Notes under the pieces: model-generated
Told to the model about the DNA's origin: nothing
Databases searched by the model: none
What the model saw: only the letters and a program-made list of their open reading frames with translations
Source of the DNA: Neptunicoccus cionae
GTDB taxonomy: Bacteria; Pseudomonadota; Alphaproteobacteria; Rhodobacterales; Rhodobacteraceae
DNA length: 48,547 bases
Direction: 5' to 3'
NCBI RefSeq assembly: GCF_014643735.1
Contig: NZ_BMKA01000012.1
Coordinates: 1-48,547 of the forward strand
Shown here: piece by piece, positions 1 through 22,940 of the stretch
Numbering within the stretch: position 1 is the first letter of the stretch
Layout of the letters: the number at the start of each line of letters is the position of its first letter
Program-made: the position numbers and the translations under genes

Positions 1-266
1 TCACAACCGACACCGTGCTGAAATCATTTCTAGGTGCACAAATCCATCGGCTTCGCAGGTATCGTGAAGATTCTGACCCCATCTTTACTGATCATGAACG
101 GCCCATAGCTGCCACTGGCTGGTATAGCCGATGCCGCGACGCAGCTTCACCAGACCGGCCATTCGTCCATGGCGCAGCATTTTCGAAGGATGAAGGTCGG
201 CAGAGCGGACGGAGCTGTCGTTCGAAGGCATGAGTTAAAGGGCGGCTTTTCATGGGAAAGCGGCCG

Positions 267-2702
267 CTAGTGACTGAGTTGAGCGAGAATGGTTTTATCG
301 ATAATCTTGTCGTCATCAATCAGCATATATGCTTTCGAAAGAATAATTGAAAACGTACCATCGCCAGCGAATGGGAGGCGTGTTGCTTCCGAGTTTCTGC
401 GTCCCGGGACAATGCACAAATATCTGTTCGACGGTCGTATTTGAATGTTCGAGGAACCGAGGTGAATCACGTAGTCATTCAACTTTCCACGAACTACCAA
501 GAATTTCCCTTCAATGGAGCATCGTTGCGCAATAGCGAGGCTTGGAAGGATGTCTTCAAGCAATTCCTTACGGGATTGGGCACTTTGGCTGAGGTCACCG
601 AATGCGTGTTCGTGCCAGTACCGTCCGAACCGTCCTTCAGGCCCGCCATCCGTCCAAGCAGGATCATTGGCAACGCTTGAAACAGCCACAAACAGGTCCA
701 CTTCGCGCATCAGTTCTGAGAAAACGATTGGCTCTACCTCAGTCAGCGGTACTCGATTATTTTCGGTGTCAAGAAAGCTGACTTGGTCTGTTGCGACGTG
801 TGAGGAAATACCGGTTTCACTGGCTTGGCCATCCTCGACAACTTCAACAGTATATTCGGCTTTCAAACCGAGAGATGGGAGCGGGCGCTCGGGGATGTTG
901 TGTCCATCAAAGTGCGCGCCCATCAGGTTGAAGCGCCAACCACGTGCATCACAAAGGGCCTTGAACTGATGCTGACGGAGGATATGTGCAGCAAAACGAT
1001 TGGAATACACCTCAGTTTGGCGCTCTGCTTCCGTTAACACATACACTTCGCGATAGACCTGTTTGATGGGCTGCGTTAGGCCTGCCTGAATGATATTGCG
1101 GCGCCACGACAGAACCGTCTCAGGATCGCAATTGAGAGGATGCCAAAGACTGACGCGAGCCTTTTCCGGAAGCTCGACTGGCGCCCCATCAGGCCCAACC
1201 CAACCTGCATCGCTGGGCAATCCTGAGACTGTCGCGTCACCGCACGTCAGTTGCCAGATCAGCGAACGGGTGATTTGCCGCCGTACGGGGTGTTGCTCAA
1301 ATAGCGTTCTCCATTCTTCGAGGTCCCAGTCCAAGCTGTCGACCCAACTTGCTTCCAATCGCGCGACTGTAGCCTTGCGCGCGTTCTCTATATCTTTCTG
1401 CTTAGATTTTAGTGCTTTTAGCGTTTCCGGATGGTTTTCACGTACTTGCTTAGGAATCGATTTGAGTTCTTTTCCATTAGAGCTCCGCCACGCCAGTTTT
1501 GTTTCGAGGGCAGTTACGCGAAGCGTAGCACAGTACCGTTCTAGCGCGACTTCTACGTACCCTTCTTGATTGAGCCCGAAGTCGGGAAGGCTTCGGTCTT
1601 CTAGCTCCGTGACATCGAGTCCAGCCGACTTTGCAACGCGGGCCAAACGCTGGGCGATCTGATCTCTGACAGAGGCGTATTTAATATCACGCAACAATCT
1701 TGAAAGTTCGGCAACCGCTGCAAAATTTGTCCCCATACCTTCCAATGCAAGCAGACATGCGTTGCCAAGCTTTATTGAGCGCGCGCCGATCTGTGGGACT
1801 TTCTTGAAACATACCTGACAGAAGCGACCAATCTGTGGAGCCATCTCAGGCGGTGCCAGCCAGATCAGGGATTTCAGAAGATCCAGGGACATATCAGGTT
1901 TCGACGGGTCCGGCACTTCTGATTCCAACCAAATGCTTAGCTGATCCCACAAATCGCTCACGAGTTTGGTGCGTGCCGCGCCTTCTTTCAGCCAAGTCTT
2001 GGTTGGCTTTGATTTGTCGAAGGCCTCGTTGAGGTGGCTCGCCAATGCGACACGCGAAGGTTCCTTGCCAACCCATTGCATGAGCTTCTTTGAAAATGCA
2101 CCCGAAGGTAGCGAAGCGGCGCCGCCAGCGGCATTTGGGTTCAGCATCGCCTTTGCCCTAATCCCCATTTTGCGTACCGCCTGAGTTGCGTGGCCCTCTG
2201 TTTCCGTTCGACGGACAAAAGCTTCGAGTGCGCGGCGTAACGCTTTGGTTGGTGCCTGTTCCGCCAGATGCCGTTCGCAAGCCCCTAAAACTGTTGAGAC
2301 CGGGAACTGGTATTCGAGGTGGTCCGTTTGCGTTGCCTTGTTGACAAGCCTGACAAGGTCTTCCTCGCTGATCTTTATTGATTTTTTTTGAAGGATAAGC
2401 CGCGCAATGGAAAAAGGTATGTCGCGGCGCAACCAATAGTCCCAACCGCCCCCGCCGCTCATACCGCGCTTGTTTTTGGCCAAAGCCGCCAGAGCAACAC
2501 TGACTTGAACCTCCCTTGGTTCTTCCATCAGCGCACGCCAGCGCGCCGAGTCCTTCAAACTCTTCACCCCGTCCCATCCTGTGTTCTGCTCTCTGCGAAC
2601 CGCCACGATTTCTTCGATGATCTGAGCGAGCACGGCCTTGGCTTCGCCGGTTTGGGAGGCAGCAGAATTGCGCAATCCAAGTATTGCCAGAAGGCGTTTC
2701 AT
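267..2702 (-). CDS. DUF4132 domain-containing protein
   Basis: This 811-residue protein has no signal peptide or membrane segment and is probably cytoplasmic. The C-terminal half carries the conserved block of the DUF4132 family: a VYVLTEAE stretch followed by YSNRFAAHILRQHQF, and a later IVFSELMREVDLFVAVSSVAND segment (given here in pieces of that block). The N-terminal half is helical and repeat-like. The start ATG overlaps the stop of the upstream 140-residue gene (ATGA), and the SD (GGAGG) lies inside that gene's last codons, so the two are translationally coupled. E. coli MolR/YehI belongs to the same domain family, but its old molybdate-regulation label is not reliable evidence for function. 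The biochemical role is unknown. The family assignment is from memory of the motif pattern; the gene itself is certain by length and coupling. Confidence 0.85.
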   Translation of the reverse strand: MKRLLAILGLRNSAASQTGEAKAVLAQIIEEIVAVRREQNTGWDGVKSLKDSARWRALMEEPREVQVSVALAALAKNKRGMSGGGGWDYWLRRDIPFSIARLILQKKSIKISEEDLVRLVNKATQTDHLEYQFPVSTVLGACERHLAEQAPTKALRRALEAFVRRTETEGHATQAVRKMGIRAKAMLNPNAAGGAASLPSGAFSKKLMQWVGKEPSRVALASHLNEAFDKSKPTKTWLKEGAARTKLVSDLWDQLSIWLESEVPDPSKPDMSLDLLKSLIWLAPPEMAPQIGRFCQVCFKKVPQIGARSIKLGNACLLALEGMGTNFAAVAELSRLLRDIKYASVRDQIAQRLARVAKSAGLDVTELEDRSLPDFGLNQEGYVEVALERYCATLRVTALETKLAWRSSNGKELKSIPKQVRENHPETLKALKSKQKDIENARKATVARLEASWVDSLDWDLEEWRTLFEQHPVRRQITRSLIWQLTCGDATVSGLPSDAGWVGPDGAPVELPEKARVSLWHPLNCDPETVLSWRRNIIQAGLTQPIKQVYREVYVLTEAERQTEVYSNRFAAHILRQHQFKALCDARGWRFNLMGAHFDGHNIPERPLPSLGLKAEYTVEVVEDGQASETGISSHVATDQVSFLDTENNRVPLTEVEPIVFSELMREVDLFVAVSSVANDPAWTDGGPEGRFGRYWHEHAFGDLSQSAQSRKELLEDILPSLAIAQRCSIEGKFLVVRGKLNDYVIHLGSSNIQIRPSNRYLCIVPGRRNSEATRLPFAGDGTFSIILSKAYMLIDDDKIIDKTILAQLSH

Positions 2703-3121
2703 CCTCCAACCAAGGGTACGAGGCGCAGGAAAGTGATTTTGCTTTGATCTGTGACCGTTAGATCTGCATCAAAGTCCTCTACCTCAAAGTCATCGAACAA
2801 TACGATTACTCTCCTTGACTCGATGGCATCCAAAGCAGCTTCGATTTCCTTGGTGGGATCAAGGGCTTTGGGGCCTTTACGGTTCGGCTTGTTCAGTTTT
2901 CGCTCCAACTCGTGCGAGTGATCACCAACGAGAAATGAAGCAACTCGGTCGTGTTCTACGTGTCTGCGGCGCGCGAGATCATTCAACCGATCAACTTCAT
3001 CTCGAACATGCTTCGCTACGACGTCGCGCGCTGAAATACGTTCGCTCGCCAGTCGAAGCGAGAATGCCTGCCGTTGAGTTTGACCAACAATTTTTTCGAC
3101 AATAGATAACTGCGCCAACAC
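2699..3121 (-). CDS. Small protein coupled to DUF4132 gene, C-terminus ends Leu-Val-Gly-Gly
   Basis: This is a 140-residue, charged protein without a signal peptide. The N-terminal ~75 residues look helical. The last ~40 residues (VIVLFDDFEVEDFD, then a DLTVTDQSKITFLRL stretch, ending PLVGG) have the beta-strand/turn rhythm and terminal Gly-Gly seen in MoaD/ThiS and ubiquitin-like beta-grasp proteins. That similarity is my inference, not a family match. It is the first gene of a two-gene operon, and its stop overlaps the DUF4132 start by 4 bases. The two Gly codons (GGA GGA) also form the SD of the next gene, which could on its own explain a Gly-Gly end. Function unknown. Confidence 0.75.
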   Translation of the reverse strand: MLAQLSIVEKIVGQTQRQAFSLRLASERISARDVVAKHVRDEVDRLNDLARRRHVEHDRVASFLVGDHSHELERKLNKPNRKGPKALDPTKEIEAALDAIESRRVIVLFDDFEVEDFDADLTVTDQSKITFLRLVPLVGG

Positions 3122-3360
3122 AAAAATCCTCTACTTGATCTATCGGCGAAACATAGCGTGATTTCCATTAATCAGCCAAGTCTCAAGTTCGACGATTCTG
3201 AGCGACAAACTTTGCGGTTTCCCGACATTGGTGCAACTTGCAGCATTAAGTAGTTTGGGCTCACTGCCGACCTCAGAGGCAGCGCAGCATCATGTGATAT
3301 GATGTCTTGTCAACGTCGGGTTGTCGATGTGGGAGGGCGTGGTGGATCGGAGGATCCATC

Positions 3361-3993
3361 ATGGAAACATCAAACTTACCCGCCATCCGCGCACTACGTC
3401 CGGTCTGGAACAAAGGCCGGATCGTCGGCCAGAAACGGCCTCTCAAGCCCAAACATGTCTGGGCTATCAGAGTGCGGCTGGAACTGGCTGAAAACCATCG
3501 TGATCTGGCCCTCTTCAATCTTGCCATCGACAGCAAGCTGCGCGGCTGCGATCTGGTCAAGATGAAGGTGGTCGATGTCATGGCCTCAGGCCAAATCAAA
3601 GAACGCGCGTCGGTTCTTCAGAGCAAGACCCGGAAACCTGTGCGCTTCGAAATCTCCGAAGGCACCCGTGCATCGCTGGCAAGATGGATGCGGGAGCCGC
3701 TGATGGTCGGATCCGAATACCTCTGGCCTGGGCGTTTTCACGAACGGCTTCACATCTCGACCCGCCAGTACGCGCGAATTGTGCGTGACTGGGTGACATC
3801 CATTGGTCTGGAGGCAAGCGCCTATGGCACGCACTCGATGCGGCGAACGAAGGTCACGCAGATCTACAAGAAGACAGGCAACCTGCGGGCGGTCCAGCTG
3901 CTGTTGGGTCATACCAAGATGGACAGCACTGTCAGGTACCTCGGCGTCGAGCTTGAAGATGCACTTGTGATCGCCGAAGCTATCGAAATCTAA
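3361..3993 (+). CDS. Short tyrosine recombinase (phage integrase family)
   Basis: This is a 210-residue site-specific recombinase catalytic domain. All expected catalytic residues are visible: Arg61 in LRGCDL, a Lys-containing beta-hairpin (KTRKPVRF), His158 and Arg161 in HSMRRT, His184 in LLGHTKMD and the nucleophile Tyr193 in VRYLGV. It lacks the N-terminal core-binding/SAM-like domain of ordinary 300-400 residue integrases. It therefore resembles the compact FimB/FimE-size class. The ATG at 3361 is preferred over an upstream in-frame ATG at 3307 because CGGAGG lies at 3348-3353. It sits between two accessory modules, so it may have mobilised one of them, but no att sites were identified. 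It could equally be an inversion switch recombinase. Confidence 0.85.
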   Translation: METSNLPAIRALRPVWNKGRIVGQKRPLKPKHVWAIRVRLELAENHRDLALFNLAIDSKLRGCDLVKMKVVDVMASGQIKERASVLQSKTRKPVRFEISEGTRASLARWMREPLMVGSEYLWPGRFHERLHISTRQYARIVRDWVTSIGLEASAYGTHSMRRTKVTQIYKKTGNLRAVQLLLGHTKMDSTVRYLGVELEDALVIAEAIEI

Positions 3994-3999
3994 ACGGCT

Positions 4000-4021
4000 G
4001 GGCCGTCGCCACAGACGGCCC
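4000..4021 (+). terminator. Hairpin just after the recombinase gene
   Basis: A perfect 8-bp stem GGGCCGTC/GACGGCCC with a GCCACA loop starts 7 bases after the recombinase stop codon. There is no U-tract, so it is a transcript-end or mRNA-stabilising hairpin rather than a textbook intrinsic terminator. Confidence 0.4.
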
Positions 4022-4183
4022 TGACCAGACCTTTGGGATAGAAGTCAGCGCGCAGTGCAGTTTCACCGAACCAGCCGTTCTTGAAGCGCGCAGAAATTTA
4101 GCAAGTTGAGTGGGCCATTGCGATGCAGAATTCGCGCTTACACGGCCGCACATACGGAGGCTTCCAGAAGAATTTTCGGCTGC

Positions 4184-4789
4184 TCAGTTCTTTAAGTAGT
4201 CCATAGTGGCTGCCCCATTGCCGCGTTTGTCGGTCTGGCCGTTCACAACAGCGTCGTTCATGCCGGGGTGGCCTTTGGCCCACCCCCATATGGAAGTCGC
4301 ACCTGTGCAGAAGCGGGCGGCGGCCATCCCGATCTCCTTCCACCATTTGCCGCTTGTCCTGTGGCAGGTTTCGTAGAGCTCTTGGCAAGAGATGGTCTCG
4401 GAGGTTTGATGCTTGGCGGCAATTATGCCCAATAACTTTTCTGCGTCGAAACCTTGCGCTTCGATGTATTGCTCGCAGTTCGCTGATAGAAGCGCCTTGC
4501 CTTGTGCGACCGCCTCAGGCTTGGCAGTGTCTAAGGCTTTTTCGATGCGAGCCTGATGTTCCTGTAATTCGGGGAATGATTTTCCCACTCTCTGCCCTCC
4601 AGGCTTGGCCTTAAACTCCTCTTTAGCTGGTCTCTCCAACTCGGCCAAGTGCCAATAACTACGCCAATGTTCACGAGGCGAGAGTAACTTGGTTTTCGGA
4701 CGTAATTGTCCCGTGGTTGCCGATAATAGCTGACCGTCTGCCGCTTCATGGCGTTCCCGAAACGCGTCGTTCACCACTGTCCTTCGCAA
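4184..4789 (-). CDS. Hypothetical protein, orphan ORF in accessory region
   Basis: This 201-residue soluble ORF opens with MRRTVVNDAFRERHEAADG. It has a basic, helical middle (for example LLSPREHWRSYWHLAELERP) and a C-terminal part with two cysteines (ISCQELYETCHRTSGKWW). I do not recognise a family. There is no convincing SD upstream. Another open frame (4746-4931, minus) overlaps its beginning, so the true 5' end is unsure or the gene has been truncated or frameshifted by rearrangement. It lies between the recombinase and the membrane-protein pair and points away from the latter. It may be a decayed mobile-element gene. Confidence 0.4.
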   Translation of the reverse strand: MRRTVVNDAFRERHEAADGQLLSATTGQLRPKTKLLSPREHWRSYWHLAELERPAKEEFKAKPGGQRVGKSFPELQEHQARIEKALDTAKPEAVAQGKALLSANCEQYIEAQGFDAEKLLGIIAAKHQTSETISCQELYETCHRTSGKWWKEIGMAAARFCTGATSIWGWAKGHPGMNDAVVNGQTDKRGNGAATMDYLKN

Positions 4790-4981
4790 AAACTGCCGCT
4801 TTCTGCCACTGCGGATCGATTGATCGAAAGGAAGTTACTTTCGTCCGGCGTGCCGCTGCACCATGAGCTTTGAAATTTCTTTCGGGAAAAGCTTGATTAT
4901 AGGCTGCCGCCCGCTCACTATGAAATTCCAATAATGGCCTCGCGATATGGCCTGCCCGCAGTCAGGCAACCGAGAAACGTG

Positions 4982-5662
4982 ATGACTTTAACAGCCCCGG
5001 CGCATCCGCTCGACCCAGCGGTAGAGCTCGAGATGATCCAGTGGAAACAGGCGCACTTCGAGCGAATAACTGAACAAGTGGAGAACGCTCTGCCCGATCT
5101 CATGGCGGAAATTGAAAGAACCGTCGCATCGATTTCCTCGATCGCCGCGAGCAAGGCGCAAGTTTCGCCCGACAGGCTTTGGAAGGAACTTTTCGAACCT
5201 TGGGCGCAGCGAACCGCCAGCCGCGTCGAGGCAGAGATGGACACCGAAATTGGAGCGCTTGTCTCAGCGCTCTCCGAGAAGGGCACCCGCCAAGACGCCC
5301 TGCGCGTCGCGCTGCCCGCTCTTACCGGAGCTGGCGTGCTCGCCGCTTCTCTTGCAGCCATCCCCACTGTTGTTTCGCTCGCGACGGTGACCACGACCTC
5401 CTTCATCATCTTCACCACCACGGCGATCTCCTGGCCCATGCTCGCATTGGGAGGCACCGGTATCGCCTTGGCTACGCTGACCGGCAGCCGCGTCGTTGAT
5501 CGGCTCAGTGATCGAAATCGCAGACATCTCGTAGTCCGCCTCCAGGGCCGCGCCCGCATCGCGGCGTTGGGTCACGGACTTGCGCCGGGCGAGCGCTGTC
5601 TCGTGACCGATCTCCAAGCGATCACGCTACGCAGTCTCGAAGCTGAACTGCGGGCCGCTTGA
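4982..5662 (+). CDS. Membrane protein of unknown function, first gene of a coupled pair
   Basis: Starting at the ATG at 4982, the protein has 226 residues; an in-frame ATG at 4934 would add 16 but has no visible SD. The first half is acidic and helical. The second half contains a ~60-residue very hydrophobic, Ala/Gly/Thr-rich stretch (from about ALPALTGAGVLAASLAAIP through ISWPMLALGGTGIALATL) that would form two or three membrane helices. A basic C-terminal tail (SDRNRRHLVVRLQGRAR) follows, probably cytoplasmic. The stop TGA overlaps the next start (TGATG at 5660-5664), so the two products are made together. No catalytic motif and no family recognised. The layout (soluble helix plus hydrophobic hairpins) recalls pore-forming or membrane-remodelling proteins, which is speculation. 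Confidence 0.7.
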   Translation: MTLTAPAHPLDPAVELEMIQWKQAHFERITEQVENALPDLMAEIERTVASISSIAASKAQVSPDRLWKELFEPWAQRTASRVEAEMDTEIGALVSALSEKGTRQDALRVALPALTGAGVLAASLAAIPTVVSLATVTTTSFIIFTTTAISWPMLALGGTGIALATLTGSRVVDRLSDRNRRHLVVRLQGRARIAALGHGLAPGERCLVTDLQAITLRSLEAELRAA

Positions 5663-6675
5663 TGCCTCTCCTCTACGCCATCCCTCCTGGCCTCGACGCG
5701 CTTGTTTCGTCCGGTAAGGCTCAGTTGATAGGCGCGATCATCAAGGATGTCTCCTCCGGCCAAATCCTGGGGCACGTTCAGCAGACGCAAGGTTTCGTCC
5801 AAGCTTTTGCTCAGGCCGGAGGCGCAGCTGCACAAACCGGTTTCTCGCCCCTCGGGATTGTCGGGATGGTGCAGAACGAACAGATCAAATCTTCGCTCGA
5901 ACAACTGCGTCAGGGCATGGCCCTTCTGCAAAATCTGCAGATTGCAAACATCGCTCTCACCGGGATCGGGCTCGGCGTGTCCATCGCCGGCTTTGCGATC
6001 ATGAACATGCGCCTGATCGCCATCGAGAAAAATCTCGGGACGTTGCGCGAGGAAGTTCGCGATATTGGCAGGTTAATACAGGAGGCCGAAATCCGCCGCC
6101 TCTTCAGCGACATCCGCGCGGCGCTTAAAGACCTTGATGGCGTCGCGACGCGGACGGACCACCTCGCGATTGCAGGCGCTCTGCAAAGACAGCTTTCCAC
6201 ACACGTGAGCACAATCTCCGACTTGCTACGGGAAGCCATGGATCCCGCCGAGGCGACCGCCCTCCCTATGGAGCGACTGGACCTGATCTGGACCTTGGGC
6301 TCGGCAAAGTGGCTCTGCGAGGAAGCAGAGCTGCGGGCACTATTCATTTCCGAAGATCTGGCCCATGCGGGCGAATACGCTGCGCAGTACCGAGACGACA
6401 ACCTCAGGTGCCTTGATCGGATGAACCCGGATGCGCTGGCCCGACTGATCGCCGCTGCCGAAAAGGATTTGGCCACGTCGATCACCGTTCGTCGTGAGGC
6501 CGCTGTGCGCCTTAGCCGTATCGCCGACGGCTTCGCCAGCGCCGTGGCCGGCCTCGGTCAGCAGCACGCACTGTCGCGAGCCCTCATCGACGGCGGAGTA
6601 GGCGGACGTGACTTCATCCTGGCCGCCTCGCGGGAAACAAAAAGCCCCTTCCTCATCGTCACACCGGAGCAGTAG
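5662..6675 (+). CDS. Coiled-coil membrane protein of unknown function, second gene of a coupled pair
   Basis: The protein has 337 residues from the ATG at 5662, which shares bases with the upstream stop. The N-terminal ~75 residues are Gly/Ala/Gln-rich. One hydrophobic helix (ANIALTGIGLGVSIAGFAIM, about residues 95-115) follows, then a long amphipathic/coiled-coil region (IEKNLGTLREEVRDIGRLIQ onward) and an all-helical C-terminal half. No signal peptide and no enzymatic motif were seen. A helix-membrane segment-coiled coil design fits a structural or pore-type partner of the preceding gene. I do not recognise the family. The neighbours are a recombinase and other accessory genes, so a mobile (possibly defence) cargo is plausible but unproven. 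Confidence 0.75.
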   Translation: MPLLYAIPPGLDALVSSGKAQLIGAIIKDVSSGQILGHVQQTQGFVQAFAQAGGAAAQTGFSPLGIVGMVQNEQIKSSLEQLRQGMALLQNLQIANIALTGIGLGVSIAGFAIMNMRLIAIEKNLGTLREEVRDIGRLIQEAEIRRLFSDIRAALKDLDGVATRTDHLAIAGALQRQLSTHVSTISDLLREAMDPAEATALPMERLDLIWTLGSAKWLCEEAELRALFISEDLAHAGEYAAQYRDDNLRCLDRMNPDALARLIAAAEKDLATSITVRREAAVRLSRIADGFASAVAGLGQQHALSRALIDGGVGGRDFILAASRETKSPFLIVTPEQ

Positions 6676-7038
6676 CTGGCGGGCCTCGCCGCATTTGCAT
6701 GCAGCCGCGGGACATCGTAACAGACGCCGGTTGTTCGACTATGAAACGACGAACCAGCGCGACGCGGAACTCTTCAATGGGTCAACGTAGCGCAGGCCCA
6801 ATTCAATCGGCTACCCTCGACATTTCAATCTTGCGAGGCCAGGTGTCAGCCTACTCGTTAGACCGGTTGTCACGGAAGACAGAAGTTCGCTTCGACTTGG
6901 GGCGAGGCAAAAGAGGTTGAAAGTCCGCTTTTGTGTCCGGCCGAAGCTCTTTTGCATCATGTAGCGAAAGCCCGCTTTCCGCCATTGGTGACGGTCGCAG
7001 CAAACGGCAGTTCCGAGCCCAATCTTCTTACTGCTGCA
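6676..7038. other. Gap without a convincing gene
   Basis: The gap lies between the membrane-protein pair and the convergent tetR gene. Short open frames here look like chance. The right part contains one copy of a dispersed degenerate repeat (see 6997-7030). Confidence 0.5.
6997..7030. repeat. Dispersed intergenic repeat, copy A
   Basis: The core reads GCAGCAAACGGCAG, TTCC, GAGCCCAAT, CTTCTTA. It aligns without gaps with copy B at 8407-8440 (GCAGCGAATGGCAG, TAAA, GAGCCCAAT), and a weaker copy is at 13244-13272. The flanking bases are also related. This looks like a decayed repeat family typical of non-coding DNA in this group. Confidence 0.6.
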
Positions 7039-7617
7039 CTATTCAGGATCGGTAAGCCTCGCCACAAGGGCAGCGATCAGATCCTTCTGCGAGTGTTTCA
7101 ACGGGTCTTTGATCCCGTTTGCGAGACCAAACATCAGAGCAAGCCCCAAGACCGCACAATGGATCGATGTTGCCTGCTGGCGAGCGAACAGCGGATCTCC
7201 CCCAAGGCAGTCGGCCAGGGCGCCATACATTCGGCTCGTGGTGGCATGCACCTGATCGAGCGCCCCCGTTTCCATCGGGGCCTGCATTTCGACCTTCAAG
7301 GTCTGCGGCGCTAAATACATCATTCGGAACCGATCCAAGTCACCTAAATGGAACGCCGCAACAGCCTCGACAAAGGCAGAGATTGCAGCGTTGGGCGTAT
7401 CTTTACCGTCAACGGCATTCACAGCTACGTCCGCCTCCGCCGCCAACCAAGAGCCAAGCATTGCAGCAAGCAACTCTTGTCTGGATGGATACCAATAGAG
7501 TACGGCCTGTTTCGACATTCCAAGAGCACGCCCAATTGCGTCAAAAGAGACTGCCCCGAACCCATCCGACGCCAATAACGCCTGTGCGGTCTTAAGGATT
7601 TTCTCGTCCGTCTTCAT
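7039..7617 (-). CDS. TetR family transcriptional repressor
   Basis: This is a 192-residue regulator. The N-terminal TetR helix-turn-helix is clear (residues ~1-50: KILKTAQALLASDGFGAVS, then IGRALGMSKQAVLYWYPSRQELL). The rest is the ligand-binding/dimer domain. The gene is divergent from a MAPEG family gene. Two near-identical palindromes (7642-7656 and 7664-7678) lie in the shared promoter region and are the obvious operators. It probably represses the MAPEG gene and itself and is released by a hydrophobic or electrophilic ligand; the ligand is unknown. Confidence 0.92.
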   Translation of the reverse strand: MKTDEKILKTAQALLASDGFGAVSFDAIGRALGMSKQAVLYWYPSRQELLAAMLGSWLAAEADVAVNAVDGKDTPNAAISAFVEAVAAFHLGDLDRFRMMYLAPQTLKVEMQAPMETGALDQVHATTSRMYGALADCLGGDPLFARQQATSIHCAVLGLALMFGLANGIKDPLKHSQKDLIAALVARLTDPE

Positions 7618-7634
7618 CCAATCACCCGAAAATA

Positions 7635-7663
7635 TTGACTACTTACCAACGGTAAGATATACA
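7635..7663 (+). promoter_or_regulatory. Sigma70-type promoter of the MAPEG gene
   Basis: TTGACT (7635-7640) and TATACA (7658-7663) are separated by exactly 17 bp. The first TetR palindrome fills the spacer and the second begins at the end of the -10 box, so a bound repressor would exclude RNA polymerase. Confidence 0.7.
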
Positions 7664-7678
7664 CTTACCATTGGTAAG
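7642..7678. promoter_or_regulatory. Double TetR operator
   Basis: Two copies of CTTACC-N3-GGTAAG are present, at 7642-7656 (spacer AAC) and 7664-7678 (spacer ATT; extended to ACTTACC...GGTAAGT). The centres are 22 bp apart, about two helical turns, so two dimers would bind on the same face. They lie between tetR and the MAPEG gene. Confidence 0.85.
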
Positions 7679-7725
7679 TAAATAAACATATGGTTTGAAC
7701 GCTAAGGCCTAAAAGGAGATTTACG

Positions 7726-8190
7726 ATGCAGGAAATCGGCTTTGAAAACCCGATCTTTGTGACCTACGCAGTTGCATCGGCCCTAATGGTCCTAAAAGTG
7801 ATGGGGCAAGGTTGGATGACCGTTTACCGGATGCTTCGGAGCAACTCAGGCCTGGCGAGTCCGGAAGACCTGCGCGCTGGCCCGATCAATAAAAAACCGG
7901 ACCCCTCTCAGCTTGAAGCCAATGACTACGTAGATCGCTCACGCCGCATGCATCGCAATGACCTTGAAAACATTCCGGCGTTCTGGATTGCCGGGCTGCT
8001 GTTCGTGCTGACAAATCCACCGCTTATCCTTGCCCAATTCTTGATGTATGGGTTCGTCACAGCCCGCGCGGCACACTTCGTCGCATATGCGACACGGCAG
8101 ACACACGAAGTTCGGGCCACCTGCTATACCATTGGTTCTTTGATTGTCATCTATATGGCTCTCCACGCACTGATCGCCCTTTTAACGTAG
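7726..8190 (+). CDS. MAPEG family membrane protein
   Basis: This 154-residue integral membrane protein has about four hydrophobic segments (residues ~10-32, ~85-105, ~108-125, ~133-152). The block between segments 1 and 2 contains the family hallmark region (DRSRRMHRNDLENIPAFWIAG), as in microsomal glutathione S-transferase 1-like proteins. These proteins conjugate glutathione to hydrophobic electrophiles or reduce lipid peroxides. The actual activity here is not known. A strong SD (AAAAGGAG, ~7709-7716) precedes the ATG. The TetR control region upstream suggests induction by a toxic or lipophilic compound. Confidence 0.88.
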   Translation: MQEIGFENPIFVTYAVASALMVLKVMGQGWMTVYRMLRSNSGLASPEDLRAGPINKKPDPSQLEANDYVDRSRRMHRNDLENIPAFWIAGLLFVLTNPPLILAQFLMYGFVTARAAHFVAYATRQTHEVRATCYTIGSLIVIYMALHALIALLT

Positions 8191-8594
8191 GAAAAGGGCT
8201 AAAGGCGTTGAGGGGAAGTGTCACGATACTAGCAAAGCCGACTTTAATTCAGGTCGCTTCGGGTGTCATCTCTTCGCCCAAGAAATTGAAACGCTGCATC
8301 GCAGAAATCGGCACTTCTGGCGGGAAGCGGCCCTTCGCTGCGTTCGCGAAACTTGGTTTTCGCTTATGAAGAAGCGGACGTTCGGCAGCACGCGATGTTT
8401 CCAATTGCAGCGAATGGCAGTAAAGAGCCCAATTTGCGTTTTACTGCGTTGCCGCGAATGTCAGTTTCATACAACCCGTGCTTGAAATCAGGCTCCATAA
8501 CAAAATGTGAACATCGCGGTGCGGGACATATGTTAACCAACTAAGGGTTGAATGGAGGTGATGATGTTGAAGCTTTTCAGGACGTCAGAGAACT
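8191..8594. other. Gap without a gene; contains dispersed repeat
   Basis: No convincing coding region was seen. The stretch 8340-8480 is repeat-derived (copy B core at 8407-8440). Base composition becomes visibly AT-richer to the right of about 8540. Confidence 0.5.
8407..8440. repeat. Dispersed intergenic repeat, copy B
   Basis: The core is GCAGCGAATGGCAG, TAAA, GAGCCCAAT, TTGCGTT, collinear with copy A (6997-7030). The following bases (CGCGAATGTCAGTTT, 8453-8467) also resemble the left part of copy C (CACGAATGTCCGGTTT near 13199). Confidence 0.6.
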
Positions 8595-8849
8595 TCAGTT
8601 TTTGGGTGTTGGCTTGTTCTCTAAATCATCCACAAAAGGAAGAATATTGTTTGAGTCGGTTTTCAGAAGTTCAGTTGCATCCAAGTAATATGCGACCTCG
8701 AGCAGTCATCCGGCTGGATCGTTGAAACGCTCTGGGGTGGGGTTTTTAACGCCGTACATACGATCTTTGAGGTAGATACGTGAGTCTGGAGGGTAAGGGC
8801 GCTAAAAATCACGTTTGACAATCCTCAACTTTAGATATTCATTTGCCAT
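8595..8849 (-). pseudogene. Remnant of a VOC/glyoxalase-like protein with two in-frame stops
   Basis: Reading the minus strand from an ATG at 8849 gives 85 codons in one frame, ending with TGA at 8595-8597, with an internal TAG (codon 15) and TGA. Between the stops the text is protein-like: RPYPPDSRIYLKDRMYGVKN, then PTPERFNDPAG, stop, LLEVAYYLDATELLKTDSNN, ILPFVDDLENK. The FNDPAG-x-LLEV signature, with x being the stop, matches the F-x-DP-x-G-x-LLE metal-ligand motif near the end of VOC-superfamily (glyoxalase/dioxygenase) domains. TGG to TGA would explain the second stop. The fragment is too short for a full VOC domain, so it is truncated as well as interrupted. The family call is tentative. 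Confidence 0.4.
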
Positions 8850-8858
8850 GAAACTTGT

Positions 8859-9323
8859 ATGTTAGGAAAAAAATTGCGTCGACGTGGGATATTTTTGTTC
8901 GCAAGAAAAATCTTTCTTCTAAAATTTTTGCTAATGGGTGCTTGCCTTGTACTTGCTGAGAAAGTGAGTTCAGAAGTAAATATTCTAAAACCTGATTTTG
9001 TCGATGAAGTCGTCAAAGTTACTAGCTTTGGAAATGTAGTTTTTAAAAACCACGGTGAAATTCGGCTTTGGGGTCTGATCACCGAACCAACCAAGTTACG
9101 AACGCATCTCATTCATGGCCGATACGCATGCTTTTCATTAGAAAAATCTAAAGTGATTTTCGCCAAACAAAAAGAAGTCAACGCAGCAATATGTACTAAT
9201 ATTGATCCGATTTCAGGGCAGGCCAAATCTATGTTCTCGCTTTATAGCAAACTATTCGCGGTAAATTCAGCTCGGGAATATTGCCAAGAAACAAAGAATT
9301 ATTTTGGGTCCTGTTCAGAATAA
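8859..9323 (+). CDS. Small secreted protein, diverged thermonuclease (SNase)-like
   Basis: This 154-residue protein has a long basic N-terminus and a hydrophobic stretch (IFLLKFLLMGACLVLA, ~residues 18-33) acting as a signal peptide or anchor. The mature part contains GEIRLWGLI, which resembles the GxxIRLWGIDAPE strand of staphylococcal-nuclease-like proteins, followed by spaced cysteines (YACFSL, AAICTN, REYCQE, GSCSE) in the pattern of Rhodobacteraceae SNase-like proteins. The catalytic Arg/Glu residues after IRLWG are not evident and the domain is short, so it may be inactive. It is AT-rich like the next gene. No strong SD was found, and the start is uncertain. The family call is tentative. 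Confidence 0.55.
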   Translation: MLGKKLRRRGIFLFARKIFLLKFLLMGACLVLAEKVSSEVNILKPDFVDEVVKVTSFGNVVFKNHGEIRLWGLITEPTKLRTHLIHGRYACFSLEKSKVIFAKQKEVNAAICTNIDPISGQAKSMFSLYSKLFAVNSAREYCQETKNYFGSCSE

Positions 9324-9362
9324 TTAGAACCATCAAGTTTCATATTTAAGAAAGCAATTTTC

Positions 9363-12300
9363 ATGGCACTTCAAGATGTACTAAACAAAATTCAGATTTC
9401 ATCAAACGGACCGCCAGGATCGGACAACTCGTTTCAAATAAAGGCGACGGCAGTTTTAACAAACCTGTATGAGAATGGTGGAGCAGAAGCTCGCCAAATG
9501 CTAGATGGAATTGCTTCTAGCAGTAGAAATTATCTTATACAGTTTACAGATAACAATGCTCGTGCTGACATCGGAGTTAACAATGAAAATGGTTTAGATA
9601 CCCATGTTGTTTCTATCGACTTTGAGTGGGTGGAGCAGGAATTCCTGTTCATTGATCAAAATGGCGTTGCAAAAAACATCAGTTCTGAATCTGTTTTAGC
9701 ACATGAGTTAGCACATCTACATTTTGGAACCGATACAGTTGCGAATGATGACGATCCTGACGGACAATCACCAAACGAAATAAGAGACGCGTTAACATTG
9801 ATGGACGCGAGTGGTTTTCCTGTACATAAAGGTTCTCAAGTATTATTAGAGAACAGCGTTCAATTGGCACTTGACGAGGGGTCAATTCGAGTAAGCTATC
9901 GCGGAGCTTCAACGAACTCTGGCGTTGACACTCCGAATGGCAATGCTTCAACAGAATTAGAAATTGGCTACGACTATACTCCTTTAAACGAGCAAACATT
10001 TGATATCGTGTTCGTAGATTCGACCAACAATATTAACGACGCGTTCGCCAATCTCGATCTAGGAAGTTTCTCATCAACTGTTGAATATCTTATCGTCCTT
10101 GGCACTGCTGACAACACCATCACCGGCAATTCAGCCAACGACATTTTGCACACTGGCAGTGGCTACGATGTGATCTACGCTTCACTTGGGAGCGATTACG
10201 TTAATGGCGGCGATGGTGTAGATATTCTAAGTTATCTGTCTCTAATCAACAGTCCCTTGGGGGCACGCCAGACAGGGATTTCGGCAAATATTACTGGTTT
10301 GAATGCAGCAGTATCAGACGGCTTTGGGGGCACAGATATTGTTCAAAAAATAGAGCAATATCGTGGGACCAATTTTGATGACACTTATTCTCTCAGCGGG
10401 AAATTTTCAGAATTTGTTAACGAAACTGGGAACGTGCAAATTACTCTGTCCGCTTTTGGTAATACATCTGTTGGAGATACAATTGATGCGAATGGCATGA
10501 CTGAAACTGGTGGTGTCTTGATCAATCTTGGCCCTGGTTCGACCAATGGCTATGTGTCAAAAAATGTTGCACTGGAAAATGTTGATTTCGCTAACACTGT
10601 AACTCTTAACGATTTCGAAAACGCTATTGGCTCCGACTACAACGATGTGATCATTGGCAACGACGGCAACAATGTTTTGATCGGCGGTGCGGGTGCCGAT
10701 AAAATTGATGGCGGTGGCGGGATTGATGTCATTCGGTTTGACCCAAATAGCGCAGGGGTGACAATAGAACTTCTTCCGTCATTGCCAACCCCTCCTGGTG
10801 TTGACCCCTTTGGTGGGCCAACTGCGTCTGGCGGAGATGCAGAAGGTGATCTTTATATCAATATTGAAGCAGTGCTTGGCACAAATAACGTTGATACATT
10901 CAATATTAATGCTGGCGGATTTATTTATGCTGGCGGCAGCGGAAACGATGTTTTCGAAATTAACACTAACGGTTTGGGGCCGGCGATTGTTTGGGGTGGC
11001 GGTGGGGCAGATACATACCGCTTCAACACAGCGGGTGGCGAAAACGCCGCCATAATGACCGTCAATGTTTCAAACCTGACAGAAGAAAACTTCCATCTGT
11101 TTGACTACAATGATTTAGGCCTGCCTTCAGACTTTGATTGGTCAGAAATTGATGCCATTATTTTGAATGCTGATAGTACTGATCAGATTGTCATGGACTA
11201 TGGCCACTTCGAACGTGTTCTAGGCACAACAACGGTTCAACAGACAGTTACAGAAATTTCCTCTGGCGAAGAATATGGGAACTTTGATCACCTTACTCAA
11301 CTTGATCTAAATTACTCAAACAACTTTGAACAATTGGTTGCTCAATACACTGCAAGCTTTCTGGGCTCGACTAACTTTAGCGTCTTCGCAGCCGCCGCCA
11401 GTTATGGAGTCTTTACAGTCAGAGAATATATCGATGACAGCGGCGTTCATTACGTGAATGCGGAAGATTACAATTTTGCAGACACGCTGAACCTTTCTAC
11501 TGCCAACTTTATGAGTGCTTGGGTTGATCCGGGAAACGGCGGTCACAGATTTCGGGAACTCAGCTGGTTAACCTATTTGGTGGATCAAGATGGTGAACGA
11601 ATTGATATGTGGCCGGGCAGTGACGACCCGTATCAGATAGGTGTCGAGAACTTTAGTGAAATCCCAGCGTTTTCTGATGTTGAGGATATCGGAAACTGGT
11701 TCATCCTTGGCGGCTCTTTAACCGGAACCTCATTGGTTACGACTGGTGAATTTAATGTCACACTCCCAACGATTGGTGAAATAGAAACAACCGTGCCAGA
11801 GATACCAAATCTCGAAGGCGGTGATGACTCTGGAACTGTGGCTGGATCATCTGGAGACGACACGATCGGAGTTGGTTTCATGGATGCAGGCGGTGATACA
11901 ATCACCGATGAATATGCAGAATTTGTAATTGAAGCGGGCGAAGGCGACGACAATATTACATTGACACGAAGTGTAGATAGCGAGTTCTACGGGGGCGATG
12001 GGAACGATACGATCAATGTTCATTACAGCAGTGGTGCAACGTTCTACGGTGGTGAAGGCAATGACCGTTTGTTCTTAGGTGTGCGTGAAAACGAAGCCTT
12101 TGGTGGTGCTGGCGATGATTTGATATCGGGGGCTCTGAGCCACGGATCTGGCCACACGATGACAGGTGGTGAAGGAACGGACAGCTTTGTGTTCACCAAT
12201 GCAGGAACGGCAGCCACCATCAGCTTGATTACCGACTTTGAAGTGGGTGTAGATAGCCTAACGGTTGATGGTCGCATCCTGAACGCAATGCACATCAACC

Positions 12301-13049
12301 AGATCCCTGCCGAATTCCAATACGCCCACAACAGCGATGGTAATCTGGTGATCAACTTCCAAGGCACGGCAGACGGCTTTGTTCACACCATCGAGCTTGA
12401 TGGTGTCACAGCTGCGGACTTCTTCCTCGCAGAACGCATTGAGCAGCGCACTTGGGATGGTACGTCAGGCGACGACACTATGGGCATTGGCTACACGGAT
12501 GCTGATAGCGACATCATCACTGATGAATACTCAGAGTTTTTTGTTTATGGCGGTGACGGTAACGATAATATCAACTTCCTGCGTAGTGTGGACAGCGAGT
12601 TCTATGGTGGGGATGGGAATGATACGATCAATGTCAAATACAGCAGTGGAGCAACCTACTACGGTGGCGAAGGCGATGACCGCTTGTTCCTGAATGTACG
12701 TGAAAACGAGGCTTATGGCGGCGCAGGTGACGATTTGATCGTGGGTGCCCTAAGCCACGGCTCAGGACATACCATGACAGGTGACGAAGGGGCTGACAGC
12801 TTTGTGTTCAACAACATCAAGCATAAAGCGACAAGCAGCGTTATTACCGACTTCGAAGTCGGTGTGGACAGCTTGACAGTTGGCGGCCAGGAATTGAACC
12901 TGTTTCAAATTGATGCCCTGCCCACTGGCTTCCAACACACCCACAATGGGGATGGTGATTTAGTTATTAGTTTCCAAGGCACTGCCACTGATTACGTGCA
13001 CAGTATTGAACTAGATGGGGTGACGGCTGATCAGTTCTTCATGGCGTAG
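9363..13049 (+). CDS. RTX (hemolysin-type calcium-binding) protein with N-terminal zinc-protease-like motif
   Basis: This 1228-residue protein has no classical signal peptide and many Gly-Asp-rich nonapeptides (for example GNDGNNVLIGGAGADKIDGG near residue 437, GGDGNDTINVHYSSG and GGEGNDRLFLG in the tail). It is a likely type I secretion substrate that folds with calcium outside the cell. Near the N-terminus, residues 114-118 are HELAH (HELAHLHFG), the HExxH zinc-binding motif, with a following Glu region (NEIRDAL) reminiscent of M10/M91-type metallopeptidases. The C-terminus is a tandem duplication: residues 828-1032 and 1033-1228 are near copies. No transporter genes lie nearby, so export would use a distant system. 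Codon usage is AT-rich, unlike its neighbours, which suggests acquisition by transfer. Confidence 0.88.
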   Translation: MALQDVLNKIQISSNGPPGSDNSFQIKATAVLTNLYENGGAEARQMLDGIASSSRNYLIQFTDNNARADIGVNNENGLDTHVVSIDFEWVEQEFLFIDQNGVAKNISSESVLAHELAHLHFGTDTVANDDDPDGQSPNEIRDALTLMDASGFPVHKGSQVLLENSVQLALDEGSIRVSYRGASTNSGVDTPNGNASTELEIGYDYTPLNEQTFDIVFVDSTNNINDAFANLDLGSFSSTVEYLIVLGTADNTITGNSANDILHTGSGYDVIYASLGSDYVNGGDGVDILSYLSLINSPLGARQTGISANITGLNAAVSDGFGGTDIVQKIEQYRGTNFDDTYSLSGKFSEFVNETGNVQITLSAFGNTSVGDTIDANGMTETGGVLINLGPGSTNGYVSKNVALENVDFANTVTLNDFENAIGSDYNDVIIGNDGNNVLIGGAGADKIDGGGGIDVIRFDPNSAGVTIELLPSLPTPPGVDPFGGPTASGGDAEGDLYINIEAVLGTNNVDTFNINAGGFIYAGGSGNDVFEINTNGLGPAIVWGGGGADTYRFNTAGGENAAIMTVNVSNLTEENFHLFDYNDLGLPSDFDWSEIDAIILNADSTDQIVMDYGHFERVLGTTTVQQTVTEISSGEEYGNFDHLTQLDLNYSNNFEQLVAQYTASFLGSTNFSVFAAAASYGVFTVREYIDDSGVHYVNAEDYNFADTLNLSTANFMSAWVDPGNGGHRFRELSWLTYLVDQDGERIDMWPGSDDPYQIGVENFSEIPAFSDVEDIGNWFILGGSLTGTSLVTTGEFNVTLPTIGEIETTVPEIPNLEGGDDSGTVAGSSGDDTIGVGFMDAGGDTITDEYAEFVIEAGEGDDNITLTRSVDSEFYGGDGNDTINVHYSSGATFYGGEGNDRLFLGVRENEAFGGAGDDLISGALSHGSGHTMTGGEGTDSFVFTNAGTAATISLITDFEVGVDSLTVDGRILNAMHINQIPAEFQYAHNSDGNLVINFQGTADGFVHTIELDGVTAADFFLAERIEQRTWDGTSGDDTMGIGYTDADSDIITDEYSEFFVYGGDGNDNINFLRSVDSEFYGGDGNDTINVKYSSGATYYGGEGDDRLFLNVRENEAYGGAGDDLIVGALSHGSGHTMTGDEGADSFVFNNIKHKATSSVITDFEVGVDSLTVGGQELNLFQIDALPTGFQHTHNGDGDLVISFQGTATDYVHSIELDGVTADQFFMA
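11844..13046 (+). repeat. Tandem duplication of a ~200-residue RTX module
   Basis: Two coding modules, 11844-12458 and 12459-13046, each begin G-(S/T)-SGDDT-(I/M)-G. Each runs through TRSVDSEFYGGDGND or LRSVDSEFYGGDGND, SHGSGHTMTG, DSFVF, ITDFEVGVDSLTV, and ends near IELDGVTA. They are strongly similar at the DNA level too, indicating a recent intragenic duplication. Confidence 0.9.
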
Positions 13050-13702
13050 GTGCCAGCGCTGCTGCGTTCCTTTGGGCGCAGTAGCCCTTATATGTTTACC
13101 ACTCGACCCGCATCCGAAAGCGGACCTTGGTCTTTGTTTCGGATGGGGTCGCTTTGTCCACAAAGCAGACCTCAGGCATGCTAAAATTCTACATGATGCA
13201 CGAATGTCCGGTTTAAGGAAGCTGCGCCGCAGCGCCCGACATTGTTGTGAAAGGCAGCTAAGGGCCGTTCGCGTAACATTACAAACTCCACTTCCTGCGC
13301 TCAACTGCCGTACATTCTGGTCGCAACGAAAGTCGGTATTCCGCCCAGTGGTGTCCGACAACACGATAAGACACCATTCCCACCAATGCGTGAGGGAAGG
13401 CCGTACGAGAAGCGTAAAGTACGAGTTACCGACTGCAATGTGTAAGCATTTCTTCAACTGCGAAATGTAAGATAAAATTGTAGATGTTTTTTGTATCTGA
13501 TGCACTACTACTAAGTAATATTGTGCATTAAGGCCTTGACGATATGACCGCCGGAGGCGTTGGGCCCTTGACGTGAATGCAACTGTCTCACCCTTGCGAC
13601 ACATCCTTTGGCAAACCGCCTGTTTTTGCGCCAGTGCGTGGCATGGCGCCCCTTTCCCTTGGATTGAAACCTGCTACATTTTGCGTAACCAAGGATATTG
13701 CA
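13050..13702. other. 653-bp gap between RTX gene and cox cluster
   Basis: No convincing gene was seen. The open frames on either strand are short, without SD, and read poorly. The region contains a weak third copy of the dispersed repeat (13244-13272) and an AT-rich stretch at ~13460-13530. The right end must contain the promoter for coxD, but I could not pick out clear -35/-10 boxes. Confidence 0.5.
13244..13272. repeat. Dispersed intergenic repeat, weak copy C
   Basis: TTGTGAAAGGCAGCTAAGGG followed by CCGTTCGCG aligns with the cores at 6997 and 8407 (GAA-GGCAG-AAG-GCC positions shared). The preceding CGAATGTCCGGTTT matches sequence flanking copy B. Confidence 0.4.
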
Positions 13703-14599
13703 ATGCCATCACTGCCCCAATCCATCGACGCAACGCAAACGATGCTGTCGGATGAAAACTATATTTGCGACAGATCACTTGCGACGCTGGTGTATCTGGC
13801 GCTGACGCTGAAACGACCTGTCTTTCTGGAAGGGGAGGCTGGCGTTGGCAAGACCGAACTGGCCAAGACCCTTGCCACGGCGTTGGGGCGGGATCTGATC
13901 CGGTTGCAGTGCTACGAAGGACTGGATGCGGCCTCGGCTGTGTATGAGTGGAACTTTGCAGCGCAGATGATCGCTTTGCGCGCTGCGGGCGATGGCGGTT
14001 TGCCCGAAGATGCCTTGTTCAGCGACAAATACCTGATCCGCCGCCCGTTATTGGAAGCGATGCAGCCCCATGAAAACGGCCCGCCGATCCTGTTGATTGA
14101 TGAAATCGACCGCACGGATGAACCGTTTGAGGCGTTCCTTCTGGAAGCACTTTCGGATTATCAGGTGACGATCCCCGAACTTGGCACCATCAAGGCACCC
14201 GAACCACCCATCGTGATCCTGACCTCGAACCGCACCCGCGAAGTGCATGACGCGCTAAAGCGGCGCTGCCTTTATCACTGGGTCGACTATCCGTCGTTTG
14301 ACCGCGAATTTGACATCCTGCAAGCCCGCGCTCCAGAAGCAAGCGAGACTCTCAGCCGCGAGGTTGTTGCTTTTGTTCAGGCGCTGCGTGAAGCTGATCT
14401 GTTCAAGAACCCCGGTGTGGCCGAGACGATCGACTGGGCCAAATGTCTTGTGGCGCTGGATGCGGTTGCTCTCTCGCCCGAGGTGATTGCCGACACTTTG
14501 GGCGCTGTTCTGAAGTATCAGGATGACATCGCCAAACTGGCCGGATCAGAGGCAACGCGGATACTCGATACAGCGCGCGCTCGTTTGTCCACCCAATGA
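13703..14599 (+). CDS. coxD: MoxR-type AAA+ ATPase, CoxD
   Basis: This 298-residue AAA+ ATPase belongs to the MoxR/CoxD class. Walker A is GEAGVGKT (residues 44-51) and Walker B is LLIDEID with Asp133-Glu134; sensor 1 is in VILTSNRTREV. CoxD proteins are chaperone-like ATPases needed to mature the [CuSMoO2] or related active site of CO dehydrogenase-type molybdoenzymes, acting with the VWA protein CoxE. The ATG at 13703 is chosen because AAGGA lies at 13691-13695; an in-frame ATG at 13577 is upstream non-homologous sequence. It is the first gene of a tight operon, and coxE starts 8 bases after the stop. Confidence 0.92.
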   Translation: MPSLPQSIDATQTMLSDENYICDRSLATLVYLALTLKRPVFLEGEAGVGKTELAKTLATALGRDLIRLQCYEGLDAASAVYEWNFAAQMIALRAAGDGGLPEDALFSDKYLIRRPLLEAMQPHENGPPILLIDEIDRTDEPFEAFLLEALSDYQVTIPELGTIKAPEPPIVILTSNRTREVHDALKRRCLYHWVDYPSFDREFDILQARAPEASETLSREVVAFVQALREADLFKNPGVAETIDWAKCLVALDAVALSPEVIADTLGAVLKYQDDIAKLAGSEATRILDTARARLSTQ

Positions 14600-14606
14600 G
14601 CTACAG

Positions 14607-18426: not shown

Positions 18427-18478
18427 CCGCTTGATTTATCAAGACGCCCGTGGTCTGGTTGCTGCGGGAGGATCCATT

Positions 18479-19438: not shown

Positions 19439-19445
19439 CACCTGT

Positions 19446-19463
19446 TGTCGCAAACATGAGACA
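19446..19463. promoter_or_regulatory. Candidate regulator binding site upstream of coxG
   Basis: An inverted repeat TGTC-N10-GACA lies ~51 bp upstream of the -35 box at 19514. The position suits an activator site for the neighbouring GAF/Fis protein. It is short and could be chance. Confidence 0.35.
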
Positions 19464-19513
19464 GTTTGCCCTAGGATTATAGCAGCCAAGCACGCTGCAC
19501 ACCGGCGGGATCG

Positions 19514-19543
19514 TTGACAGGTTTAAGTCTTTTGCGGTCTAAT
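19514..19543 (+). promoter_or_regulatory. Sigma70-type promoter of coxGSLM
   Basis: TTGACA (19514-19519) and TCTAAT (19538-19543) are separated by 18 bp, ~30 bp before the coxG start. The full -35 consensus and 5/6 -10 match make this the best promoter in the cluster. Confidence 0.65.
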
Positions 19544-19571
19544 TTTCCAAACTACGGGAGGATTACATCAC

Positions 19572-20015: not shown

Positions 20016-20069
20016 CACTAAGAACACACATTTAAGGGCCGGTTTGCCCGTCAATTCTGGGAGGAATTC

Positions 20070-20549
<480 letters not shown>

Positions 20550-20563
20550 GGGAGGGTTTAATC

Positions 20564-22927: not shown

Positions 22928-22940
22928 GGAGTGATTGAAC

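Follow-up and report, generated by a model that had tools for sequence, protein, structure and literature searches.

A conserved two-gene unit of a small, possibly MoaD-like protein and a DUF4132-DUF7737 protein in Neptunicoccus cionae, Deinococcus and Bacteroides

The stretch of DNA analysed here (the window) comprises 48,547 nt of Neptunicoccus cionae contig NZ_BMKA01000012.1 and carries, on the minus strand, a two-gene unit in which a small-protein gene directly precedes the gene for a large DUF4132-DUF7737 protein (Table 1). The TGA of the former and the ATG of the latter share 4 nt (ATGA), an arrangement that suggests translational coupling of the two genes. The large product matched PF13569 (DUF4132) at an E value of 1.4e-47 and PF24879 (DUF7737) at 3.8e-34 in Pfam. 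A sequence-only reading of this DNA had described a 140-residue protein ending in RLVPLVGG whose stop overlaps the start of a DUF4132 gene, and had suspected an uncharacterised two-gene unit; the coordinates of the open reading frames (ORFs) and the Pfam matches agreed with the description, and the suspicion was borne out by a pair that is kept in all seven intact members of the family and across phyla. A chance ORF at 2699-3121 was ruled out by reciprocal profile searches that ranked distant relatives on top, and by this sequence evidence the ORF is a genuine gene.

Table 1. Features of the gene pair, in coordinates of the 48,547-nt window.
Feature	Position	Strand	Details or basis
Small-protein gene	2699..3121	-	GTG start, 140 aa, C-terminus RLVPLVGG, ITFLRLVPLVGG
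Partner gene, 811-aa DUF4132-DUF7737 protein	267..2702	-	ORF and Pfam
ATGA start/stop overlap of both genes	2699..2702	-	TGA of small gene, ATG of partner
C-terminal conserved segment of small protein, residues 104-140, end S-K-I-T-F-L-R-L-V-P-L-V-G-G	2702..2812	-	Family alignment
DUF4132 domain of partner, residues 410-589	936..1475	-	Pfam PF13569
DUF7737 domain of partner, residues 708-809	276..581	-	Pfam PF24879

The small protein belongs to a family of seven intact members of 134-144 residues, from the window, Novosphingobium, four Deinococcus and Bacteroides, together with one remnant in Fusobacterium; all relatives stem from plasmid records, and no count given here is a genome-wide frequency. 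With the window protein as query, tblastn of the plasmid records found one relative, in Novosphingobium humi (35% identity, E = 7e-8). The four Deinococcus relatives were recovered by inspecting the DNA upstream of other DUF4132 genes, and the Bacteroides finegoldii relative was located with the D. ficus protein as query (E = 9e-10). By BLAST, the alphaproteobacterial group and the Deinococcus/Bacteroides group retrieved no member of each other. A profile of the Deinococcus and Bacteroides members placed the Novosphingobium and window proteins as the top two of 493 ORFs (E = 3.6e-8 and 1.6e-6; next 1.8), the reciprocal alphaproteobacterial profile put the five known relatives on top of 534 ORFs (E = 2.3e-10 to 2e-6; next 3), and HHalign linked the two groups at 97%. 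Judged by these profiles, the cross-phylum homology of the small proteins is significant in both search directions. The degraded relative in Fusobacterium vincentii (L012:7019-7138) aligned with the final 54 positions of the profile (E = 1.4e-4) and was interrupted by a single in-frame TGA; no DUF4132 gene was found in its record.

Scans of all seven members against Pfam and NCBIfam gave no convincing match, the best E value being 0.08 in each. In the family alignment D110, D111, S127, L134, L137 and G139 (window numbering) were invariant in seven of seven, and the last Gly was present in six. Genome contigs searched with the window protein and a two-member DUF4132 alignment yielded no homologue, and no homologue was accepted from viral contigs or from phages (window and Bacteroides proteins as queries). 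A viral-contig match (L013) of 20 residues, near an ORF that looked terminase-like by eye, was discarded as chance, and another match (H113/L041) was discarded as lying within a 4-kb gene annotated as hypothetical. Three further weak profile matches were seen in two Deinococcus records (E = 0.007-0.034).

In every intact member the small gene lies directly upstream of a DUF4132-DUF7737 gene, with gaps of -4 (window), -1, 2, 2, 2, 2 and 37 nt (Bacteroides). The Novosphingobium partner is 46% identical to that of the window; an extra N-terminal DUF5724 is present in the five partners from Deinococcus (four) and Bacteroides (one) and absent from these two. An alignment of nine partner proteins, including two without a small gene, showed the invariants HP, QP..Q..RE.Y..T..E, S.R and R.W in the DUF4132 domain, and Y..H.GS and I.D..I..Q in the DUF7737 domain. 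Polar residues were invariant in nine of nine at H521, Q544, Q548, R551, E552, Y554, E560, S567 and R569, and likewise at R587, S662, R666, D669, Y744, H747, S750, D802 and Q808.

DUF4132 proteins occur in E. coli, and the plasmid records that contain them span more than 10 genera. We inspected 9 of 30 DUF4132 plasmid records, chosen non-randomly, and the small gene was present at five of these loci and missing at four. At two of the latter, in Sinorhizobium and Iodobacter, the DUF4132 protein lacks DUF7737 and its gene keeps company with genes for a MoxR-type AAA ATPase, DUF5682, VWA and SWIM proteins; these proteins have the DUF4132 domain in common with the window partner but differ in the missing DUF7737 (two of two), a WGR domain (one of two) and the other neighbours. 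We take this MoxR-linked group to be of the MolR/YehI type. DUF4132 thus occurs in at least two gene contexts, and tblastn of all plasmid records with four different small members reached no additional DUF4132 record. No activity of DUF4132 is named in the accessible parts of the limited library of literature searched, nor is the small family linked there to DUF4132 outside Deinococcus. One DUF4132 branch having a dedicated small partner, from Alphaproteobacteria to Deinococcus and Bacteroides, offers a handle on DUF4132 function.

The C-terminal tail was compared across the family. It reads PLVGG in the window, PLKGG in Novosphingobium, ALAGG in all four Deinococcus, MLSGRLW in Bacteroides and VLAGRMW in the Fusobacterium remnant, so that Gly-Gly forms the C-terminus of six of the seven intact members and the alignment column of the penultimate Gly shows no variation. 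Counted from the ATG that follows, the codons of this Gly-Gly span -5..+1 (window), -8..-3 (Novosphingobium) and -11..-6 (Deinococcus); because this offset varies among the three lineages, Gly-Gly tracks the stop codon. The GGAGG of the window directly adjoins the ATG (spacer 0 nt) and therefore cannot serve as a normal ribosome-binding site, and the best anti-Shine-Dalgarno duplex at a spacer of at least 4 nt reached only -2.2 kcal/mol, with an anti-Shine-Dalgarno string that we presume to be correct. Across the four Deinococcus, these codons do fall within a plausible ribosome-binding site (spacer 5-9 nt). The caution that the GGA GGA codons double as the Shine-Dalgarno sequence of the DUF4132 gene is thus weak for the window, while such a double role is plausible for Deinococcus; Gly-Gly as a pure ribosome-binding signal was rejected on the zero spacer. 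Stop-codon tracking and the window spacer favour a protein-level role of the tail. Loss of the Gly-Gly end where the downstream gene does not overlap, which the sequence-only reading named as a refutation, was seen in part: in the only well-separated pair, that of Bacteroides, the small protein ends in SGRLW, a loss seen in one lineage plus the remnant, which ends in AGRMW.

The D. radiodurans member is DR_A0165 (SEP068184), with DR_A0166 as its partner in the same gene order as in the window. In isolate DRR11 the copy lies at L008:1805-2209, after a thioredoxin gene that matches DR_A0164 (thioredoxin), and its partner is the sole DUF4132 protein of a 412-kb replicon; we equate the DRR11 small gene with DR_A0165 because the DdrO site and the adjoining thioredoxin gene match. 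This D. radiodurans copy is preceded by YeeE/YedE and thioredoxin genes and followed by thi genes. According to the accessible part of PMC8533742, DRA0165 is listed with a DdrO site at -83 in a putative operon with drA0166 (DUF4132), this operon is strongly upregulated upon DdrO depletion, and mitomycin C raises the level of tagged DRA0166 in the wild type but not without IrrE. Within the 13-kb L008 stretch the published DdrO 20-mer had exactly one copy (1723-1742), which precedes the gene by 82 nt, against a chance expectation of none. A palindrome resembling the radiation/desiccation response motif (RDRM), scanned with a consensus that we assume to be the accepted one, was found upstream of all four Deinococcus copies, with 17, 17, 17 and 15 bases matched out of 17 (a level that none of 500 shuffles reached at any of the copies), which suggests that DdrO may also control the pair in Deinococcus species besides D. 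radiodurans. SEP068184 was reported to be upregulated after gamma rays and H2O2, its deletion to raise H2O2 survival, an effect lost in an overexpressing complemented strain, and the protein to be cytoplasmic and to bind Trx1 in pull-downs (accessible part of PMC9650054). DR_A0165, a Deinococcus-only protein in that part of the paper (PMC9650054), is extended to other phyla by the profile matches.

We tentatively favour the explanation that the small protein serves the DUF4132-DUF7737 protein as an obligate MoaD/SAMP-like subunit, with a link to stress in Deinococcus at least. The two genes would then give a two-subunit protein unit, in which the small protein would be made together with the large one and act as its dedicated physical partner. 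The constant gene order with its mostly short gaps, the cross-phylum homology, the DdrO site and RDRM-like palindromes of Deinococcus, the thioredoxin neighbour in D. radiodurans and the lack of ThiF and Prok-JAB matches on six of six relatives' replicons speak for it. It would adopt a MoaD/SAMP-type beta-grasp fold with a helical insertion between the first helix and the last strands, and its tail, L-x-x-L-x-G-G in most members and L-x-G-R-[LM]-W in the others, would dock at a conserved site on the large protein, by analogy with the MoaD-MoaE mechanism. In Deinococcus the unit would be kept off by DdrO and produced after DNA damage. An I-TASSER model of DR_A0165 was likened to 5MPO, 3PO0, 1WGK, 1VJK, 2QIE, 6JBZ, 1V8C, 6JC0, 2L52 and 2M19, all ten described as associated with the molybdopterin-synthase complex and 3PO0 being SAMP1, in the accessible part of PMC9650054, where the small-ORF-encoded proteins (SEPs) are of at most 100 residues against 134 for DR_A0165, so that the model may cover only part of it. 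This published threading lends independent, though modelled, support to a ubiquitin-like reading of the small protein. The proposed beta-grasp fold draws on this threading and on the tail pattern, which is strikingly MoaD-like by eye.

Several results weigh against this subunit explanation. AlphaFold, given the window protein alone without relatives, returned an unusable model with a mean predicted local distance difference test score (pLDDT) of 40.3, and residues 95-140 alone gave an equally unusable model (pLDDT 55.9) with no strand. When a position-specific scoring matrix (PSSM) of the family was compared with E. coli MoaD and three ThiS proteins, 17%, 16%, 69% and 96% of shuffles reached the score (300 shuffles per sequence, Gly-Gly retained), and single-sequence members scored against MoaD/ThiS profiles mostly failed to outscore 120 decoys; the best scores (window, D. 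ficus and Bacteroides; local, MoaD plus ThiS) were reached by 6-7 of 120. Upstream of the window copy RDRM-like matches were at chance level, as they were for Novosphingobium and Bacteroides, and no LexA-type GTTC repeat with at most one mismatch occurred within 300 nt upstream of the window gene. According to Zhou et al. (accessible part of PMC9650054), DR_A0165 has no RDRM upstream, which contradicts PMC8533742 and the 20-mer; the two published statements conflict, and isolate DRR11 does have the listed letters upstream of its copy. Co-immunoprecipitation partners named for DR_A0165 in the accessible part of PMC9650054 are Trx1 and others, DR_A0166 not being named. Finally, DUF4132-DUF7737 genes without a small neighbour occur in Acetobacter and in Nonomuraea, where the immediate neighbourhood was read without a profile search of the record.

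LexA-type control in the window was rejected, GTTC-N7-GTTC with at most one mismatch occurring 36 times against 40.3 expected and not at all in 3122-3420. Database searches were negative on the fold as well, with no ubiquitin-like match in PDB sequence searches up to E 10 and likewise none in Pfam. HHalign comparisons with nine MoaD, or nine MoaD and three ThiS, sequences gave probabilities of 0.2-2.5%, and in the four settings 48, 3, 1 and 41 of 300 column shuffles (last two columns retained) reached the score. The MoaD/ThiS sequence evidence is mixed; since the PSSM and single-sequence tests failed and the profile tests split, we do not claim sequence homology to MoaD. The beta-grasp likeness proposed by the sequence-only reading gains some support from the published threading of DR_A0165, the low-pLDDT predictions are unusable, and shuffles were beaten in two of the four profile settings.

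A different explanation is that the protein is a small helical or mixed adaptor with no beta-grasp and that the tail likeness and the Gly-Gly reflect chance combined with G-rich translation signals. We regard this as somewhat unlikely. The low-pLDDT predictions, the lack of ubiquitin-like matches in Pfam, PDB and NCBIfam, the lack of significance of the PSSM and single-sequence comparisons and of two profile settings out of four, and the plausible Deinococcus ribosome-binding site all fit it, but published threading yielded only structures associated with molybdopterin synthase (accessible part of PMC9650054), the scores of two profile settings were reached by only 1 and 3 of 300 column shuffles, and the window Gly codons, at spacer 0, make no normal ribosome-binding site. 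Alternatively, the small protein could be a true covalent modifier whose Gly-Gly is activated by a housekeeping MoeB/ThiF-type E1 encoded at another genomic site and joined to proteins once DNA is damaged, with the DUF4132-DUF7737 protein as ligase, receiver or main target. The stop-codon-tracking Gly-Gly of six of seven members and the polar invariants (Q, R, E, Y, H, S, D) kept by the large protein are consistent with this, as is a D. radiodurans JAMM protease that acts on MoaD-MoaE and leaves a C-terminal Gly on MoaD, whose authors speculate on a ubiquitin-like modification system in that species (accessible part of PMC8832034). It is nevertheless unlikely, as Gly-Gly is lost in Bacteroides and the Fusobacterium remnant, and neither ThiF (PF00899) nor Prok-JAB (PF14464) matched any of the six relatives' replicons at E 0.001, a search outside which lay the main chromosomes and the window's genome; both models gave matches in control genomes. 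The absence of an E1- or JAB-like gene from the window, as the sequence-only reading had it, was confirmed for the 14 window ORFs scanned with Pfam, E2 not being searched for. A modifier/target system is accordingly no more than possible, the conserved pair and the Gly-Gly speaking for it and the replicons against. We judge decidedly unlikely its more specific form, a damage-induced ubiquitin-like modifier that lacks its own E1/E2 and uses MoeB/ThiF, with the DUF4132-DUF7737 protein as ligase or receiver and the GR[LM]W ends as precursors for trimming; if the tail were conjugated, the protein would represent a new type of modifier with a link to stress.

A MoaD/ThiS-like sulfur carrier feeding a product made by the DUF4132-DUF7737 protein is improbable. 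The MoaD-like fold proposal (accessible part of PMC9650054), the Gly-Gly ends and the YeeE/YedE, thioredoxin and thi genes around the D. radiodurans copy would suit it, but no annotated sulfur-transfer gene was present in the stretches of about 5-7 kb read around the copies of Bacteroides and of the three further Deinococcus, and the GR[LM]W ends would require trimming. Highly improbable is a toxin-antitoxin or phage-defence pair, despite the lone integrase adjoining the pair in the window, the transposase-like ORFs seen by eye in Novosphingobium and the damage induction in Deinococcus (accessible part of PMC8533742). Neither window protein matched PADLOC, which gave no convincing match to any of the seven small proteins; the relatives' matches were weak and partial (the Novosphingobium small protein, alone of its family, to PDC-M02B at E 0.0061, the D. 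ficus DUF4132 protein to OloA at 1.3e-4 and that of Bacteroides to HEAT-ARM_XIII at 1e-4), and a strain deleted for only the small gene is viable (accessible part of PMC9650054). The suggested link to mobile defence or conjugation found no backing, as nothing was seen that points directly to phage defence or conjugative transfer.

Set beside known systems, the window pair resembles DR_A0165-DR_A0166 in family and in having the small gene directly upstream of the DUF4132-DUF7737 gene, and differs in that its partner lacks the N-terminal DUF5724 of DR_A0166 and that it has neither a DdrO-like site above chance nor a LexA-type repeat. MoaD, SAMP1 and Urm1 (presumably 1WGK) are alike in published model similarity and in the Gly-Gly of most members, but the family is longer (134-144 residues), probably has a helical insert and has a varying tail, without ThiF on its replicons or a ubiquitin-like match in PDB or Pfam. 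Bil and Bub systems carry E1/E2 and deconjugating JAB-type genes. Bil, Bub and CBASS Cap2/cGAS share with the family a stress or immunity context and have an activated C-terminal Gly (accessible parts of PMC10097602 and PMC13373217), but CBASS Cap2/Cap3 come with E1/E2 and JAB-type genes (accessible part of PMC10097602), in contrast to the family's replicons with no ThiF or Prok-JAB match.

Next to the pair, at 3240-4022, lies a lone tyrosine recombinase gene (PF00589) that shares 94% identity with part of a plasmid of Sulfitobacter pontiacus and 81-89% with Phaeobacter plasmids, a recurrent unit among roseobacter plasmids. On the other side, at 96-231, about 80-135 nt are similar in 24 plasmid records (76-92% identity in the best 10 of 24), with no annotated feature in nine of these best 10, and may be an insertion-sequence end. 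A tRNA-linked island was rejected, with no tRNA in the window and no Rfam match in 1-9500. Two overlapping genes at 4934-6675 encode proteins of 242 and 338 residues with no significant Pfam match, and 9363-13049 encodes a 1228-residue protein that carries RTX calcium-binding repeats; ahead of it is encoded a 154-residue protein without a Pfam match. Farther along, at 13577-23735, AAA ATPase, CoxE-type VWA and XdhC genes are followed by ORFs that by eye resemble a molybdenum-hydroxylase operon.

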